DNA of 64,000 nt from Bacillota bacterium (GTDB lineage Bacteria; Bacillota; Clostridia; Lachnospirales; CAG-274): NCBI GenBank assembly GCA_017460805.1, contig JAFUAF010000002.1:1-64000 (forward strand). The letters run 5' to 3'. Below are positions 36,260 to 43,105 of the stretch, piece after piece (the first letter of the stretch is position 1; every line of letters starts with the position of its first letter). The notes below the pieces were generated by a model, which had not been told where the DNA came from, searched no databases, and saw only the letters and a list, made by a program, of their open reading frames with translations. The position numbers were made by a program, and so were the translations under genes.

Positions 36260-36296
36260 AGACCCCGATGCCTGAGCATCGGGGTCTGTTTTATTT
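36260..36296. terminator. Shared terminator between galE and the ROK gene
   Basis: AGACCCCGATGC (36260-36271) and GCATCGGGGTCT (36276-36287) pair perfectly with a 4-base loop. A T-rich tract follows on +, and the convergent gene's stop lies at its edge. Confidence 0.85.
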
Positions 36297-37535
36297 GTAC
36301 ATACTTTCATTTGCCATAAACCTGTCCACAAGGCACATGGATATGCCCGTTACGGCAAGATGCCACACCTCGCGGCTGTCGTAAGTTATCTCGACGGGAT
36401 TTTCACGCGGCATATACTTGAAAGAGCCTAAATTTTTAAGTACCTGCTTATGGAAATAAGTTCCTGCGGAGGAATATATTCCTTGGATTATAATAAGTTC
36501 GGGGTCTATATTTATAATGATATTTTTAAGTGCCATACTGAAAAATTTTGCCACATATCTGACAGTATCCATTGCCAGCTCGTCGGCATCATTGTCGGCG
36601 GCATTAAAAATATTTTCCATTGTAAGACCCGTGCCGTAGCGGAAAAGCACCGATTGTTCGTAATTTCTGCTGTTGACTATCCTGTTGTACAGCCTGTCAA
36701 GCGAAACTATCCTCTCAAAACAGCCGCAGCTGCCGCATTGGCATATCTCAACATCATTGGCATCAAGGGTCATGTGACCTATCTCGCCGATAAGGGTATG
36801 ACTGCCCATCATGATCTTGCCGCGGTCGATATATCCCGCCGCAATTCCGTCAAGGGTATAGATAGCGACATAGCTTTTATCAAGCAGGCTTTTGTTGTAA
36901 TAAAGTTCCGCATAGCCCGTCATTTTTGCCTCGTTGCAGATATAAACATTAATATTTTCGGGCAGTATGGTCTTGAACATACTGACGATCGGAATATCCC
37001 TGCCCCAGTTGGGATAAAGCGAGTTATAGCGCATTATGCCAGTATCTTCATCGGTTATACCGCCGAGGCAGACACCCACCATAAAAATTTTATCGTCCGT
37101 CAGCTTGTTTTCAAGCATTATCTGTGCATAGATATTCCTGAAATCCCAGATTATGTTTTCAAGAGGCTCGTTCTGTCCGTGGGGCTTGTCGATAACGCAG
37201 ATTATCTCGTTGATAAGGTTGGTAAGCACCACTTTCAGCACATGATTTTCAAGCCTTACACAGATATTGTATCTGTAATTTTTGTTGAATGAGTATATCT
37301 CGGGGCGCTTTCCGCCAAGACTGGTTGACTGACCCTTTCCGAGAGACAAAACTATACCCTGCTCCACAAAAGACTCTATCGCCTTTACAATAGTCTGTCG
37401 GCTGATGCCCGTTGCATCTGCGACTTCATTGAGCATTATCGTTTCCGATTGGGCTATAGTACTTAAAATTTTCTCCCTGTTTATCAACTTCAAATCTTTA
37501 GGCATCGCTGCCGTATCTGTGGTAATGCCTCGCAT
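36291..37535 (-). CDS. ROK family transcriptional regulator (NagC/XylR type)
   Basis: 414 residues. The N-terminal winged helix (about 15-75, NEVADATGISRQTIVKAIESFVEQGIV) is followed by a ROK sugar-kinase-like domain. The zinc motif CQCGSCGCFE (about residue 255) is intact. The glycine-rich phosphate loop is degenerate and the sugar-site motif GEIGHMTLDAN is visible, so it probably senses a sugar but need not be a kinase. The ATG at 37533-37535 has GGGAGGTG upstream. It lies 27 bases after the second nucleotidyltransferase gene, making it the last gene of a long co-oriented run. Confidence 0.88.
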   Translation of the reverse strand: MRGITTDTAAMPKDLKLINREKILSTIAQSETIMLNEVADATGISRQTIVKAIESFVEQGIVLSLGKGQSTSLGGKRPEIYSFNKNYRYNICVRLENHVLKVVLTNLINEIICVIDKPHGQNEPLENIIWDFRNIYAQIMLENKLTDDKIFMVGVCLGGITDEDTGIMRYNSLYPNWGRDIPIVSMFKTILPENINVYICNEAKMTGYAELYYNKSLLDKSYVAIYTLDGIAAGYIDRGKIMMGSHTLIGEIGHMTLDANDVEICQCGSCGCFERIVSLDRLYNRIVNSRNYEQSVLFRYGTGLTMENIFNAADNDADELAMDTVRYVAKFFSMALKNIIINIDPELIIIQGIYSSAGTYFHKQVLKNLGSFKYMPRENPVEITYDSREVWHLAVTGISMCLVDRFMANESMYK

Positions 37536-37562: not shown

Positions 37563-38324
37563 TTATGATAGTATTATTTTCTTAAATATTTCATCCAAAG
37601 CATCCCAGTCTCTGTTTTTTTCTTCGTGCATCTCATCAAGCAGGATCTTATATCTTTCAAGTTCTTCAACAATATATGTATTCAGTACATCTACCCGTCT
37701 ATCCTTATCGCTTTCACTCATCTTTATTTTTTGAGCAACCAGCTTGTCAACAACAGGTTTTAATTTATCCGAAAGCACAGTTTTTGCTAAATCGTCAAAA
37801 ATAACAGGAGGTGCAGTTCTGTTCTCCTCTATCCATTTACAGCAAAGCAGCGGACGCAGTACATAAAAATATTTTTTATATTTGACATATTCCTCTGTCA
37901 GATATTTATGATAATTGCTGCTCGCAGTACCATAATAATGATACATAGCCGATTTTACCGAAAAATAGTTTTCGGACACCTTTCTTACATTGTCCCATGT
38001 TTCGGTCGTTTTGTATATCACAGGCGAATTCGACCACTCAAAAACAGTCGCATTTGATTTGTAAAAAAGCTGAAGCGCCTTTGAAATATCCCAGCCGTTT
38101 ATGTCCAATGTTTCGTTAAGTTCCCAATCTATATAATCTTTTTTAGGACGCAGTGATAAATAATGGTCAGGCTTTCTTGCATAAACAAACCGTACATCAT
38201 AATCGCTGTCCGGTGAGGCAAATCCCCACGCTCTGCTGCCCGATTCGACACAATGAAGTATTCTGACATGTTCTTTATTCTCTATCTCGTCAAGCCTGTC
38301 CCGTATTGTTTTGTTAATATCCAT
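37563..38324 (-). CDS. RlaP-like nucleotidyltransferase (second of a pair)
   Basis: 253 residues resembling the RlaP/YcgL group of DNA-polymerase-beta-type nucleotidyltransferases. The active-site region is ESGSRAWGFASPDSDYDVRFVY near residue 28, with the GS motif and the Asp-x-Asp pair for metal binding both intact. The family plan continues with YLSLRPKKDYIDWELNETLDINGWDISKAL and FEWSNSPVIY. Its ATG lies inside the last codons of the preceding nucleotidyltransferase gene (11-base overlap). RlaP proteins are associated with RNA repair, but substrate and activity are unproven. It could also modify a tRNA or act in defence. Confidence 0.82.
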   Translation of the reverse strand: MDINKTIRDRLDEIENKEHVRILHCVESGSRAWGFASPDSDYDVRFVYARKPDHYLSLRPKKDYIDWELNETLDINGWDISKALQLFYKSNATVFEWSNSPVIYKTTETWDNVRKVSENYFSVKSAMYHYYGTASSNYHKYLTEEYVKYKKYFYVLRPLLCCKWIEENRTAPPVIFDDLAKTVLSDKLKPVVDKLVAQKIKMSESDKDRRVDVLNTYIVEELERYKILLDEMHEEKNRDWDALDEIFKKIILS

Positions 38325-39333
38325 TTAATATCACCTTTTTGTTAACAGCCATAACATAATCCGAAACCTTATTCATATCCGGTTCATCGGGCAAAGCTGT
38401 ATTTTTTGCAGCATATTCAAGCCTTTTCTCATAGTCCGATATAAGGGCATAAAAATCATCCTTGTATGTCCCGTCTGATTTTTGATAATCACCGCGGCGT
38501 ATGCTTAAAAGCAGATCAAGCTCATTTTCTCTGTATGTATTTATTTTCTCTTTTTCCAATATATCTATCGCCATCATAAACAGCCGCAAAAGGTGCATCG
38601 CATGTTTATTCAAGTGATCATCATCTTTCTTTTTATTGCGGCGGCCAAGTTTATTATAGTCCTTTACAATATTGTTCATCTCGTTGCAGATACCCACATA
38701 ATCACGCAGCGGATAATGCTTTAGAGTATTATCCATAAAAATTTCGGTTTCCATTTCGGGTTTATCTGATTTATCAATATATAACTTTACACCATTTTCA
38801 GCATACTTTTGATAATGACTTATAATATCATTCATGGCATTTTTTATGGAATTATACAAATGCACTTCTTTTTCGGGCTGGGGATATTTGTCCCTTTCAA
38901 GTGCATTTTGCAGCCTGCGCAGCTGTGCATCGGCATAACCGCCAAATGAGCCTATCGCACGTTTTGACAAAAACATATCCGCATTATCTATCAGTTCCCG
39001 ACCCATTTCATTAAGATATAAATAATTTTCAGTCCGCATACCCAAAAGTTCGATAGTATTTGGATTGCAGCTTAAAAGCAAGGTTATTATTTTGTTAAAA
39101 GTATATATGGTCGTATCGGTATTGTCATCCACGTACTGCTCGTAATTTGCAAGGCCTATAAGTTCACAACTGCGATTTAAGGCAACACCTCTTATATCTA
39201 TATCGCTGTTTTCGTTATTTGTACCGTACGCATAGCTTCCCGCAAGCCCAAGCATTATTATTCTTTCACCCAAATGCTCATTAGTGCGCAGAAAATCATA
39301 TTCCTTATTTTTCAATAATTCGGAAGTATACAT
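38314..39333 (-). CDS. Nucleotidyltransferase (first of a pair)
   Basis: About 339 residues from the ATG at 39331-39333, which has AGGAG eight bases upstream; the GTG at 39342 lies on the ribosome site itself and is rejected. The catalytic region is LGLAGSYAYGTNNENSDIDIRGV near residue 30, with the GS and Asp-x-Asp motifs intact, followed by YTFNKIITLLLSCNPNTIELLG. It resembles the same RlaP-like superfamily as the next gene but shares little detail with it. A lysine-rich patch (KLGRRNKKKDDDH) near residue 235 could touch RNA. It lies five bases after the ABC-F gene, so co-expression is very likely. Confidence 0.78.
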   Translation of the reverse strand: MYTSELLKNKEYDFLRTNEHLGERIIMLGLAGSYAYGTNNENSDIDIRGVALNRSCELIGLANYEQYVDDNTDTTIYTFNKIITLLLSCNPNTIELLGMRTENYLYLNEMGRELIDNADMFLSKRAIGSFGGYADAQLRRLQNALERDKYPQPEKEVHLYNSIKNAMNDIISHYQKYAENGVKLYIDKSDKPEMETEIFMDNTLKHYPLRDYVGICNEMNNIVKDYNKLGRRNKKKDDDHLNKHAMHLLRLFMMAIDILEKEKINTYRENELDLLLSIRRGDYQKSDGTYKDDFYALISDYEKRLEYAAKNTALPDEPDMNKVSDYVMAVNKKVILNGY

Positions 39334-39338
39334 TCGTA

Positions 39339-41114
39339 TCACTCCTGTGATTTTATTTTTTCATCAAGCTCGGTCAGATAGACCCAACGTTCCGTTTTTT
39401 GTTCAAGTTCGGCTTCAAGCTCTTCTTTTTTGGCACTGAGTTCCTGCAATTTTGAATAGTTTGCCGCCGAAGTCTCCATTTCTTTATCTATTTCGGATAT
39501 TTGTTCTTCAAGCGAAGAAATATCATCGTCAATGGTCTCAAATTCACGCTGTTCGTTATAGGTCATTTTCAGTTTACGCTGACCTTTATCCCATGTTTTG
39601 GCGGTCTTTTCTTCCTTTACGGGCTTTTCTTCTTCCGCCTTTTTGTCATGATAATCGGCATAATTGCCCTCATACTGCTTTATGTTTCCGTTTTCAAAGG
39701 CAAATATCCTGTTCACACATTTATCGAGGAAATATCTGTCATGCGAAACTATGATAACAGCCCCGCCGAAGCCTTGTATATAATCCTCCAAAACCGTCAG
39801 TGTTTCTATATCAAGATCGTTTGTCGGCTCGTCCAAAAACAGGATATTCGGCGCAGACATCAGCACTTTAAGCAGATACAAACGCCTTTTTTCGCCGCCC
39901 GACAGTTTGGATATAAGGGAGTACTGCATATCCCCGTCAAATAAAAACCTTTCCATAAGCTGTGAAGCGGAAATTTTATCCCTGCCGTTTTGCACATATT
40001 CCGCCACATCACGGATATAGTCGATGGGTCTTTCGTTCTCATGCGAATAAACATCATTATTCTCCTGCGCAAAAACACCTATTTTGACGGTCTCTCCCAC
40101 TTCCACGCTGCCGCTGTCCGGACTTATCTTTCCGCAGAGCATATTTATAAGCGTAGTCTTGCCGCAGCCGTTGTCGCCGACTATGCCAAGTCTGTCGTTC
40201 TTATTTATAATATACGAAAAATTTGACACATAGTCAATACCATTATAGGATTTTGTTATATTGTCGGCAATTATCGTCTTGCCGCCAAGTCTTGTCGAAG
40301 CACCCTTAAAATCTATCTTCTGCACTTCTTTGGGCGCTTGTATGGAATTTATCTCGTCAAAGCGTTCAAGCCTTGCCTTTTGCTTTGTAGTTCTTGCCCT
40401 TGCGCCGCGTCTTATCCACTCCAGCTCCGTGCGGATAAAACTTTTTCTCTTGCGTTCGGACGCTGCTTCAAGTTCCTCCCTCTCCGCCTTTTTTTCAAGA
40501 AAAACGGTATAGTTGCCCTCATAAGTATACATTTTGCCCTTGTCAAGCTCGATTATCTTGTTCGCCGCCCTGTCAAGAAAATATCTGTCGTGGGTAACAA
40601 GAATAAGCGCTTTTGTACTTGATTTAAGCATATCTTCAAGCCATTCGACAGTCTTGCTGTCAATGTGGTTTGTCGGCTCGTCAAGGATAAGCAGATCGAC
40701 TTTTGAAATAAGTGCCGCCGCTATCGCAACACGCTTTCTGCCGCCGCCCGACAGTTCCGAAACAGGCTTGTAATAGTCGGTTATGCCTATCTTTGTGAGG
40801 ATAGATTTTACATTACTGTCCTCTTCGGGTGACTGCGGATCGCAGATCCTGTTCATATAGTCGATAACGACCTCGTTTTCAAGGAATTCGGGGGTCTGCG
40901 GAAGATACGAAACACGCAGACCGCGCATTTTCACAATATCCCCGCTGTCGGCCTCGTCAACTCCCGCTATTATCTTCAAAAGCGTAGATTTGCCCGTACC
41001 GTTCACACCTATTATACCAATTTTGTCATTGCTGTCCACACCAAAGGAAATGTTGCTTAAAACCACCTTTTCCCCGTAGGACTTCGATATATTTTCAACT
41101 GTTAAAATGTTCAT
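39339..41114 (-). CDS. ABC-F family ATPase (Uup-like)
   Basis: 591 residues with two ABC domains and no membrane segments, the mark of ABC-F proteins that act on ribosomes or DNA intermediates. First domain: Walker A GVNGTGKSTLL, signature ELSGGGRKRVAIAAAL, Walker B LLILDEPTNHIDS. The linker (about 215-290) is rich in Arg/Lys. Second domain: GDNGCGKTTLINML, KLSGGEKRRLYLLKVLM, ILFLDEPTNDLD. A C-terminal coiled coil of about 80 residues (YSKLQELSAKKEELEAELEQ) is typical of Uup. The two nucleotidyltransferase genes follow at once. A resistance role is not indicated. Confidence 0.92.
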   Translation of the reverse strand: MNILTVENISKSYGEKVVLSNISFGVDSNDKIGIIGVNGTGKSTLLKIIAGVDEADSGDIVKMRGLRVSYLPQTPEFLENEVVIDYMNRICDPQSPEEDSNVKSILTKIGITDYYKPVSELSGGGRKRVAIAAALISKVDLLILDEPTNHIDSKTVEWLEDMLKSSTKALILVTHDRYFLDRAANKIIELDKGKMYTYEGNYTVFLEKKAEREELEAASERKRKSFIRTELEWIRRGARARTTKQKARLERFDEINSIQAPKEVQKIDFKGASTRLGGKTIIADNITKSYNGIDYVSNFSYIINKNDRLGIVGDNGCGKTTLINMLCGKISPDSGSVEVGETVKIGVFAQENNDVYSHENERPIDYIRDVAEYVQNGRDKISASQLMERFLFDGDMQYSLISKLSGGEKRRLYLLKVLMSAPNILFLDEPTNDLDIETLTVLEDYIQGFGGAVIIVSHDRYFLDKCVNRIFAFENGNIKQYEGNYADYHDKKAEEEKPVKEEKTAKTWDKGQRKLKMTYNEQREFETIDDDISSLEEQISEIDKEMETSAANYSKLQELSAKKEELEAELEQKTERWVYLTELDEKIKSQE

Positions 41115-41126
41115 TTCATACTCCGC

Positions 41127-42401
41127 TTAAAAAATTCTCCAAAAATTTATTATATAGCACGAAAGGCAGCACATAAACGCATTACAAGCAGCAAATGCCG
41201 TACTCCATGCAAAAGTTATGTATTTGTTTTTCTTATCGCCGAATGAATAGAAAAGTATCAGCCCAAGCGCAAAAAAAAGCATAAATATTACTGTTTTTGA
41301 CGGGATGATCATTGTTTCATACATACCTAAACGGTCACGCAGTATGCGAAAGACTGTGTCCGTAGGTCTGTATACGGGATAACCGCCATCGGGAGCACTA
41401 TGTATGCCAAGCAACAGAGAAAATAAAACAAACTGTACAACAAACAATATAGCAGTCGGTTTGACAAGCGCCATACACATTTTTTTGCTGCCCGTATTCT
41501 TATATAAAAATTTTATCTGAAAATATGTAACAGCTGCCCATAGTACATAGTTTACCGCCACTTCAAAATAATCAAACCCCAAGGTGAGGGCAATAAGTTT
41601 ATACGGAATCTGTAAGATCACTCCTATGATTTCACCTATCAGCGGTATCAATACCAAGAATAAAACATCAAACATCAAAAGCCCAACTACAGTATTCCTG
41701 ACAAACTTTTTCTGCAAAGCCGCTTTTTCAAGTATTTCACGGTTTGTGCAGCCCGATGCTGTCCTGTAATTTTCAAACACCTTTTTATACAGTACGGCGA
41801 GAATTATAATTATAAAAACAGCCAAGGGGTAACCGCGCCTGATATAGATAAAGCCCTCGATAAACAGCGCAAAAAGTGTCGTCCCGACTGTTCTTTGCGT
41901 AATATATTTATCGGTATTTACTTCACCCGATATATCTTGTCTAAACATCATATCCTCTTTTGACTTTATGGGTTTTAAGCTTTGCTCAAAATATGTGCTT
42001 ATTCTGTAATTCCCGTCATAATTTGAATTATTTTCTTCTTCAAGTCCTTTGAAAACAAAATTTGCCGCATCCATTATAAGGCAGTATTCCAAATTTGAAA
42101 GATGTATCTTGTTATACTTTCCTATCTTTTCGGAATGACTCCACAAAACCCCGTAATTAAGAATATTTTCGCCGCTTTCATTGCTTATATATATTGAAAA
42201 AAGATAAGGCGCTTCTATTGCCGTAGCATCGGTGTCTTCGGGTTCGAGGAAGAAATTTCCGACGTAACGCTGTATTATTCTTCCTTCAACTATGTTATAA
42301 AACTCTTTTCTTTGCGCTGTATACACGGATGCAATCAAAACCAAAATACCCGCCATAACTATAACAGCCAATATCATCTTTTTGATTTTATTCATAGTCA
42401 T
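41127..42401 (-). CDS. Multi-helix membrane protein, function unknown
   Basis: About 424 residues. The ATG at 42399-42401 overlaps the comFC stop (ATGA) and has AGGAGAG upstream, so the frame start at 42476 is rejected. There is one N-terminal helix (about 9-30), an outside domain of about 140 residues (RIIQRYVGNFFLEPEDTD..., YRISTYFEQSLKP), then about seven helices. These include an RDD- or Yip1-like stretch (FVRNTVVGLLMFDVLFLVLIPLIGEIIGVIL) and a C-terminal four-helix part. No catalytic motif was recognised. It lies between comFC and the ABC-F gene. Confidence 0.65.
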   Translation of the reverse strand: MTMNKIKKMILAVIVMAGILVLIASVYTAQRKEFYNIVEGRIIQRYVGNFFLEPEDTDATAIEAPYLFSIYISNESGENILNYGVLWSHSEKIGKYNKIHLSNLEYCLIMDAANFVFKGLEEENNSNYDGNYRISTYFEQSLKPIKSKEDMMFRQDISGEVNTDKYITQRTVGTTLFALFIEGFIYIRRGYPLAVFIIIILAVLYKKVFENYRTASGCTNREILEKAALQKKFVRNTVVGLLMFDVLFLVLIPLIGEIIGVILQIPYKLIALTLGFDYFEVAVNYVLWAAVTYFQIKFLYKNTGSKKMCMALVKPTAILFVVQFVLFSLLLGIHSAPDGGYPVYRPTDTVFRILRDRLGMYETMIIPSKTVIFMLFFALGLILFYSFGDKKNKYITFAWSTAFAACNAFMCCLSCYIINFWRIF

Positions 42402-43105
42402 TCTCTCCTGTTTACAATAGCGATGCAAATGACCTCCACACTTTCCGCGCCCGCTTTTATCAATGTTTTGGCGCACTCGTTCACGGTAGAGCCCGTAGTG
42501 TAAATATCATCGACAAGCAAAATTTTCTTATCTTTTACATCACCTGTCACAGTAAAAGCGTCTTTCAGATTTTTAAGACGTTCCTTTTCGGACAGATCGT
42601 GCTGATTTTGGGTATCGCGTATCTTTACAAGCGCTTCACGATACTCGCCCATACCAAGGTTTGCAAGAAAGCTTGCAAGCATTGCGCTTTGGTTATAGCC
42701 GCGCTGTTTCAGCTTTTTCTTGTGCATAGGCACGGGAACGACTATATCCGCACCCGAAAAACCGTGTGATTTTGCATAGTCATATAAAGGTCTTGCAAAA
42801 TACTCCACATTCCTCGGTTCATTATTGAATTTTATATTATGTATTGCTTTTCTGACCTTGTCCTTATATTCATAGGCGCAGTAAGCCCGCTTGAAATAAA
42901 GCTTTTTATTTTGGCAATCGCTGCATATATTGTTTGCGATTATCGGAACGCCGCAAATATCACAGGTCTTTCCGCTTATCGTTTCAAGCCTGCATTTCGG
43001 GCAAAGCCACTTTTCTTTGTGAAATTCCAACACTTCGCCGCAGACCATACAGCAGTTGGGAAATATAAGTTCAAGTAAGGTCTCTTTTATATCTGAAAAT
43101 CTCAT
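42398..43105 (-). CDS. comFC: ComFC-type phosphoribosyltransferase domain protein
   Basis: 235 residues. The N-terminal zinc part has two CxxC pairs (CCMVCGEV, CPKC, CDICG and CSDC within residues 18-65). The C-terminal phosphoribosyltransferase-like domain has VPVPMHKKKLKQRGYNQS near 120 and the PRPP-type loop LLVDDIYTTGSTVNE near 195. Homologues are needed for DNA uptake during transformation, but the family is also found in organisms not known to be competent. No other com genes are in the window. It overlaps the upstream gene by 35 bases. Confidence 0.9.
   Translation of the reverse strand: MRFSDIKETLLELIFPNCCMVCGEVLEFHKEKWLCPKCRLETISGKTCDICGVPIIANNICSDCQNKKLYFKRAYCAYEYKDKVRKAIHNIKFNNEPRNVEYFARPLYDYAKSHGFSGADIVVPVPMHKKKLKQRGYNQSAMLASFLANLGMGEYREALVKIRDTQNQHDLSEKERLKNLKDAFTVTGDVKDKKILLVDDIYTTGSTVNECAKTLIKAGAESVEVICIAIVNRRE

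Follow-up and report, generated by a model that had tools for sequence, protein, structure and literature searches.

Two adjacent genes on the minus strand of a 64,000-nucleotide stretch of Bacillota DNA (the window; contig JAFUAF010000002.1, positions 1 to 64,000, order Lachnospirales) encode two different nucleotidyltransferases (NTases) of the RlaP type, here called NTase B and NTase A. We propose, with a probability of roughly two in three (0.66), that they form a horizontally moving, two-enzyme cassette that restores the ends of tRNA or other RNA and has no ligase of its own. Both genes lie downstream of a gene for an ABC-F ATPase, and all three are read in the same direction, in the order ABC-F (41114–39339), B (39333–38314) and A (38324–37563). 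A preliminary description of the window had treated the three as a single, tightly packed unit for ribosome rescue and RNA-end repair. The packing is as described: the ABC-F stop at 39339 is separated by 5 bases from the ATG of B at 39333, and the stop of B at 38314 lies past the ATG of A at 38324, giving an 11-base overlap. The open reading frame (ORF) caller also returned an alternative, longer form of B that begins at a GTG at 39342. The features of the NTase genes are as follows.

37563–38324, minus strand: NTase A, canonical RlaP nucleotidyltransferase, 253 amino acids (aa), NTase domain and C-terminal helical bundle (PF10127, 291.9 bits; structural model)
38314–39333, minus strand: NTase B, divergent RlaP-type nucleotidyltransferase of the PHROG 388 type, 339 aa (PF10127, 64.1 bits; phrog_388, 185.9 bits)
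38314–38324, minus strand: 11 bases shared by the end of B and the start of A (ORF coordinates)
38196–38243, minus strand: active-site stretch of A, SGSRAWGFASPDSDYD, residues 28–43, with G29, S30, D41 and D43 invariant (alignment A7)
38103–38105, minus strand: third acidic residue of A, D74, invariant (alignment A7)
37854–37877, minus strand: C-terminal-domain motif of A, K150-x3-Y154-x2-R157, invariant (alignment A7)
39196–39240, minus strand: active-site stretch of B, GSYAYGTNNENSDID, residues 32–46, with G32, S33, D44 and D46 invariant (alignment A6)
39115–39117, minus strand: third acidic residue of B, D73, invariant (alignment A6)
38584–38607, minus strand: motif of B, K243-x3-H247-x2-R250, invariant (alignment A6)

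Two distant paralogues with intact active sites

The preliminary description had assigned both proteins to the RlaP type, and a profile search bears this out. NTase A matches PF10127 over essentially the whole model (E 5.9e-87, model positions 2–247 of 249), which identifies it, on sequence grounds, as a full member of the RlaP family. In NTase B, only the N-terminal NTase domain is matched (E 2.1e-17; residues 20–145, corresponding to model positions 12–141 of 249) and the C-terminal half lies outside the match; both scores nevertheless exceed the curated cut-off of 23 bits. The match of B to the phage family phrog_388 extends over residues 18–338 (321 of 342 residues). The two proteins differ strongly from each other, as previously noted, with approximately 25% sequence identity over 88 residues. 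Their profiles align over 118 columns with 96% probability, and we regard A and B as distant paralogues as judged by sequence.

The GS...DxD active sites that the preliminary description had seen in both proteins are invariant across 57 homologues of B (alignment A6) and 62 homologues of A (alignment A7). In A, the invariant D74 would provide the third metal ligand, as expected from the NTase fold. Moreover, the C-terminal domains of both proteins share a K-x3-[HY]-x2-R motif with equal spacing. The predicted structures are good for A and fair for B (mean predicted local distance difference test scores of 95.8 and 84, respectively), and both adopt the general NTase fold. Residues 121–234 of A match HEPN-type helical bundles in model comparisons (Z 7.6–7.8). 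The nearest solved structures include HalB and drug (aminoglycoside) adenylyltransferases; likeness to the drug NTases reaches Z 6.2–7.3 for B and 8.4–9.5 for A, in a fold that many NTases share. A Foldseek search of B against the PDB returned weak superfamily matches only.

Conservation and probable mobility of the pair

Among the best 80 named B loci, A is the next gene after B, in the same orientation, in 63, and in these relatives the median distance from the stop of B to the start of A is 4 nucleotides. In the order sample, the pair is present in 15 genomes, in some of which A precedes B (L054, L055). The divergence of A correlates with that of B (r = 0.94 over 61 pairs), a value obtained with no species-tree control and to which shared species history contributes. 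The genes that flank the pair vary between loci, and a recurrent partner in Lachnospirales was not found, the neighbours there being general transporters, kinases and regulators. One pair, in genome G383, had seemed to sit in a Pnkp/Hen1-like operon and was rejected, its 467-aa and 818-aa neighbours being a GNAT/PHP protein and a glycosyl hydrolase by Pfam.

The genes on either side of the pair in the window are the following.

39339–41114, minus strand: ABC-F ATPase, 591 aa, a neighbour outside the cassette (Pfam; NF000355; NTase-free orthologues in relatives)
36291–37535, minus strand: ROK-family regulator, 414 aa (PF00480, 97.8 bits)

In the congener G031 (locus L068), 5 nucleotides separate the ABC-F stop from the start of the ROK gene, with no NTases between them; where the NTases are absent, ROK, which comes after A in the window, directly follows ABC-F. 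Within the family, a close ABC-F orthologue is present in 16 of 48 genomes and B in two, both of the same genus. The B of this locus shares 66–69% identity with its counterparts in other families and in Clostridium, about the same as the identity of ABC-F between genera of this family (67%). The empty site in G031, together with the presence of B in two of 48 family genomes despite such cross-family identity, indicates that the pair is mobile. The reading that best accounts for these observations is that the conserved unit is the B–A pair, which moves horizontally between genomes as a unit. The ABC-F gene is a resident core gene, and the B–A block was either acquired next to it or lost from G031. 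The guanine–cytosine (GC) content of B and A (36–37%) is below that of ABC-F and ROK (43–44%); the upstream membrane-protein gene also has 37%, which makes this contrast weak as evidence of mobility.

By Pfam, the window neighbours of the pair are ABC-F, ROK, a membrane protein and ComF, and neither Pnkp nor Hen1 is found among them. The membrane-protein gene is a low-GC ORF at 41127–42476, upstream of ABC-F; in genome G034, its place is taken by a 194-aa ORF with no detected similarity.

RNA-repair genes beside A and B in other genomes

A-type genes lie directly beside RtcB in ten genomes of the order (G109, G038, G118, G226, G238, G331, G305, G302, G211 and G262), and six of these adjacencies were checked as ORFs. 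RtcB adjoins none of the 15 A genes that are paired with B. RtcB occurs in 34 of 51 genomes with RlaP versus 89 of 341 others (p = 2.7e-8), and a PF09414 RNA ligase in 13 of 51 versus 27 of 341 (p = 6e-4), neither value being corrected for phylogeny. The genome of the window contains both RtcB and an RNA ligase, unlinked to the pair. In Deinococcus ficus, the gene order is Hen1, a B-like gene, an A-like gene, a hypothetical gene and Pnkp. Of these two NTases, the first is matched best by the B profile and the second by the A profile, which places the pair itself inside a recognised repair operon in that organism.

Several other contexts were recorded. The PF09414 ligase of the window's own genome (C52, L326:5780-6835) lies among metallophosphatase and ParB-like genes, a region that, from its ORFs only, gives the impression of possibly being a mobile element. 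In one family of the order, a NADAR-domain gene, assigned by Pfam, is directly upstream of an A-type RlaP (L328:4393-6047), with a similar protein in L330:275-1945. Elsewhere, A-type RlaP is flanked by a MoxR-type AAA ATPase and a DUF5682 protein (L337:2303-6387) or directly preceded by a Zeta_toxin-like P-loop kinase (L342:143-1540), and RtcB–RlaP pairs adjoin a DUF7788/DUF2828 protein or a Band_7 protein (L346:4392-7927, L347:1829-5763).

B is also carried by phages, mostly as the sole member of the pair: across 80 IMG/VR contigs with B, A is present at one locus. A CCA-adding enzyme is the direct neighbour of B in 28 of these 80 loci (after B in 25, before it in three) and lies within four genes in 40. 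When B is clustered at 70% identity, 13 of the 43 clusters show this adjacency, so more than one phage lineage has it. Near phage B, Thg1 and KptA are recurrent too, DNA ligase is among the neighbours, and RtcB adjoins B at two phage loci (L171, L177). In five Clostridioides-type phage contigs, an amidoligase-like gene lies directly before B (including L208:4804-5925), and in some of these KptA is a few genes from B.

In two bacterial genomes, B adjoins a related gene. In G060 (L058:4648-7647), RtcB, a 253-aa HD/tRNA_NucTran2_2 protein and B are encoded by touching or overlapping genes, and in G312 (L348:2516-4307), from another family, B overlaps the gene for a 255-aa HD/tRNA_NucTran2_2 protein. 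Both proteins are bodies of CCA-adding enzymes that lack the NTase head. Among nine genomes checked, such headless bodies occur in these two only, the other matches being full-length enzymes. B itself has no match to PF01743, the PolyA_pol head domain, in the Pfam search.

Proposed role and alternatives

In the proposed restoration cassette, a tRNA or other RNA would first be cut and trimmed by a ribonuclease, whether a toxin, an effector of a defence system or a phage weapon. A and B, as template-independent nucleotidyltransferases, would then restore the missing nucleotides at the 3′ end, and a ligase (RtcB, encoded elsewhere in the genome) or a CCA-adding enzyme would complete the repair. 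A probably handles internal breaks that are ligated afterwards, and B probably acts at tRNA ends with proteins of the CCA-enzyme type; the cassette would have landed here between ABC-F and ROK. The analysis shows to which family the two proteins belong, that their active sites are intact, that the pairing is conserved, that an empty site exists and which genes lie nearby; we infer nucleotide addition, a tRNA substrate, cooperation of A and B, protection against RNA damage, the division of labour and the trigger. The patchy and mobile distribution of the pair fits a cassette that counters damage. RNA-end repair, as put forward in the preliminary description, draws support from the RtcB, CCA-adding enzyme, Thg1, KptA and Hen1/Pnkp neighbours in other genomes, and loses the support it had taken from ABC-F.

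Several observations weigh against this proposal. The pair in the window, like most pairs in Lachnospirales, is not flanked by a gene for a ligase, a kinase or a CCA-adding enzyme, and the case for a repair role at this locus is accordingly drawn from relatives. In three of the 15 genomes with the pair, neither RtcB nor a PF09414 ligase was detected, and the co-occurrence statistics ignore phylogeny. The nearest structures are generic NTases, so the fold alone does not identify the substrate. Finally, in the literature searched, no experiment on any RlaP was found.

A more specific arrangement, which we advance tentatively and consider doubtful, is a split enzyme for tRNA end repair, in which B, as the NTase head, would act at the 3′ end of tRNA while docked on a body of the CCA-enzyme type, and A would restore internal breaks for RtcB. 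Equally tentatively, the dock might be the headless HD/tRNA_NucTran2_2 protein in some bacteria and the full CCA-adding enzyme in phages. Were this so, the pair would be a two-site tRNA repair cassette common to gut bacteria and their phages.

It is also conceivable, and in our judgement rather unlikely, that the pair acts in defence or as a toxin system, in which B, A or both inactivate tRNA by nucleotide addition or make a signal, with the partner as control. Patchy distribution and mobility would suit such a system, the fold is also that of NTase toxins and AMPylating antitoxins, HalB of the Hailong anti-phage system is among the best structural matches (Z 9.5–10.6), and the C-terminal bundle of A resembles HEPN domains. 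However, similarity to MntA is weak (NF047752, 17.3 bits versus a cut-off of 60), no separate HEPN gene is adjacent, and PADLOC gave no match for A and weak PDC-S09 matches for B. The active site is complete in both partners, which would not be so in a toxin paired with an inert antidote. Moreover, the many phages that carry B beside CCA-adding enzymes and DNA ligase fit protection of tRNA better than attack on it.

Routine RNA maintenance, such as 3′-end tailing or tRNA quality control rather than repair after attack, is improbable. The pairing of B with CCA-adding enzymes and headless CCA bodies would be expected of it, as would a chromosomal site outside any recognisable island, but patchy presence and horizontal spread argue against housekeeping, and the RtcB, Hen1/Pnkp, KptA and NADAR contexts are typical of damage-response systems.

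The module favoured in the preliminary description, in which ABC-F would clear stalled ribosomes and the NTases would mend the released tRNA, now appears very improbable. Tight packing in one direction speaks for it, as does the class of the ATPase: its domains by Pfam are two ABC_tran, ABC_tran_Xtn and ABC_tran_CTD, and it scores as ribosomal protection-like (NF000355 of NCBIfam, 480.7 bits, cut-off 380). The ABC-F–B–A triplet also recurs in the congener G034 (identity of 84–87% in ABC-F and B, 73% in A), and the arrangement is not due to chance. However, the triplet was found in these two genomes of one genus, close to the single-genome occurrence that the preliminary description had named as telling against a module, and a survey across genera did not find it kept, the B–A pair standing elsewhere with unrelated neighbours. 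Five genomes of the genus have ABC-F, and in three of them (G031, G032 and G035) the NTases do not accompany it, with the site in G031 empty as described above, and within the short stretches fetched no NTase lies beside ABC-F elsewhere in the family. At the named B loci, a close ABC-F (1e-60) is found within three genes of B in 0 of 80; at the looser threshold of 1e-30, a different ABC-F appears at two of 80 (adjacent in L135, three genes away in L147), which we estimate to be about the chance level. No ABC-F was found near A or B in the other examined loci of the order. We conclude that ABC-F has no special role in the cassette.

That the NTases are small-molecule enzymes of the aminoglycoside or lincosamide type, acquired as resistance genes beside a ribosomal protection ABC-F, is hardly credible: the fold is common to ANT(4′), AAD(9), AadA and LinB, and ABC-F proteins can confer resistance, but the match to such enzymes that the preliminary description had named as refuting its reading was not found for A or B in Pfam or NCBIfam at E 0.01, the match to PF10127 is clear, and RNA-repair neighbours recur across bacteria and phages.

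Relation to known systems

RlaP has been predicted to restore lost nucleotides before ligation, and RlaP, the CCA-adding enzyme and Thg1 have been noted earlier in jumbo phages (PMC7824862). The Pnkp1–Rnl–Hen1 complex is a bacterial RNA-repair system (PMC4411300). Both RlaP and its connection with RNA ligases are already known as predictions, and the window pair is best read as a variant of this predicted, known class. Provisionally, the stand-alone B–A pair, the coupling of B with CCA-adding enzymes and the headless CCA bodies were not found described in the literature reached, the main 2016 RlaP paper aside. The rebuilding of broken RNA ends by RlaP is predicted, not proven, and a compact, widespread, ligase-free pair with a phage-borne second member offers a simple system for testing that prediction. 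The presence of B in phages beside CCA-adding enzymes suggests that the rebuilding of tRNA 3′ ends is contested between gut bacteria and phages.

The pair resembles, and departs from, several known systems. In the RlaP family (PF10127), A is a full-length member, B matches by its NTase domain and the predicted role is the same; the difference is that two distinct paralogues are here paired in an operon without a ligase. The MntA/HEPN type VII toxin–antitoxin system is matched neither by family score nor by an adjacent HEPN gene. The likeness to the Pnkp/Hen1 operon comes through the B-like and A-like genes between Hen1 and Pnkp in D. ficus, whereas the window pair has neither gene beside it. 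RtcB–RlaP operons have in common with it the A-type gene found beside RtcB in ten genomes of the order, but the A genes paired with B do not adjoin RtcB, which is unlinked in this genome. The CCA-adding enzyme (PF01743, PF13735 and HD) adjoins B in many phages, and in two bacterial families B overlaps its headless bodies, but B lacks a PF01743 match. Finally, B matches the phage nucleotidyltransferase phrog_388 over most of its length; the bacterial form is paired with A, whereas the phage forms mostly occur without it.

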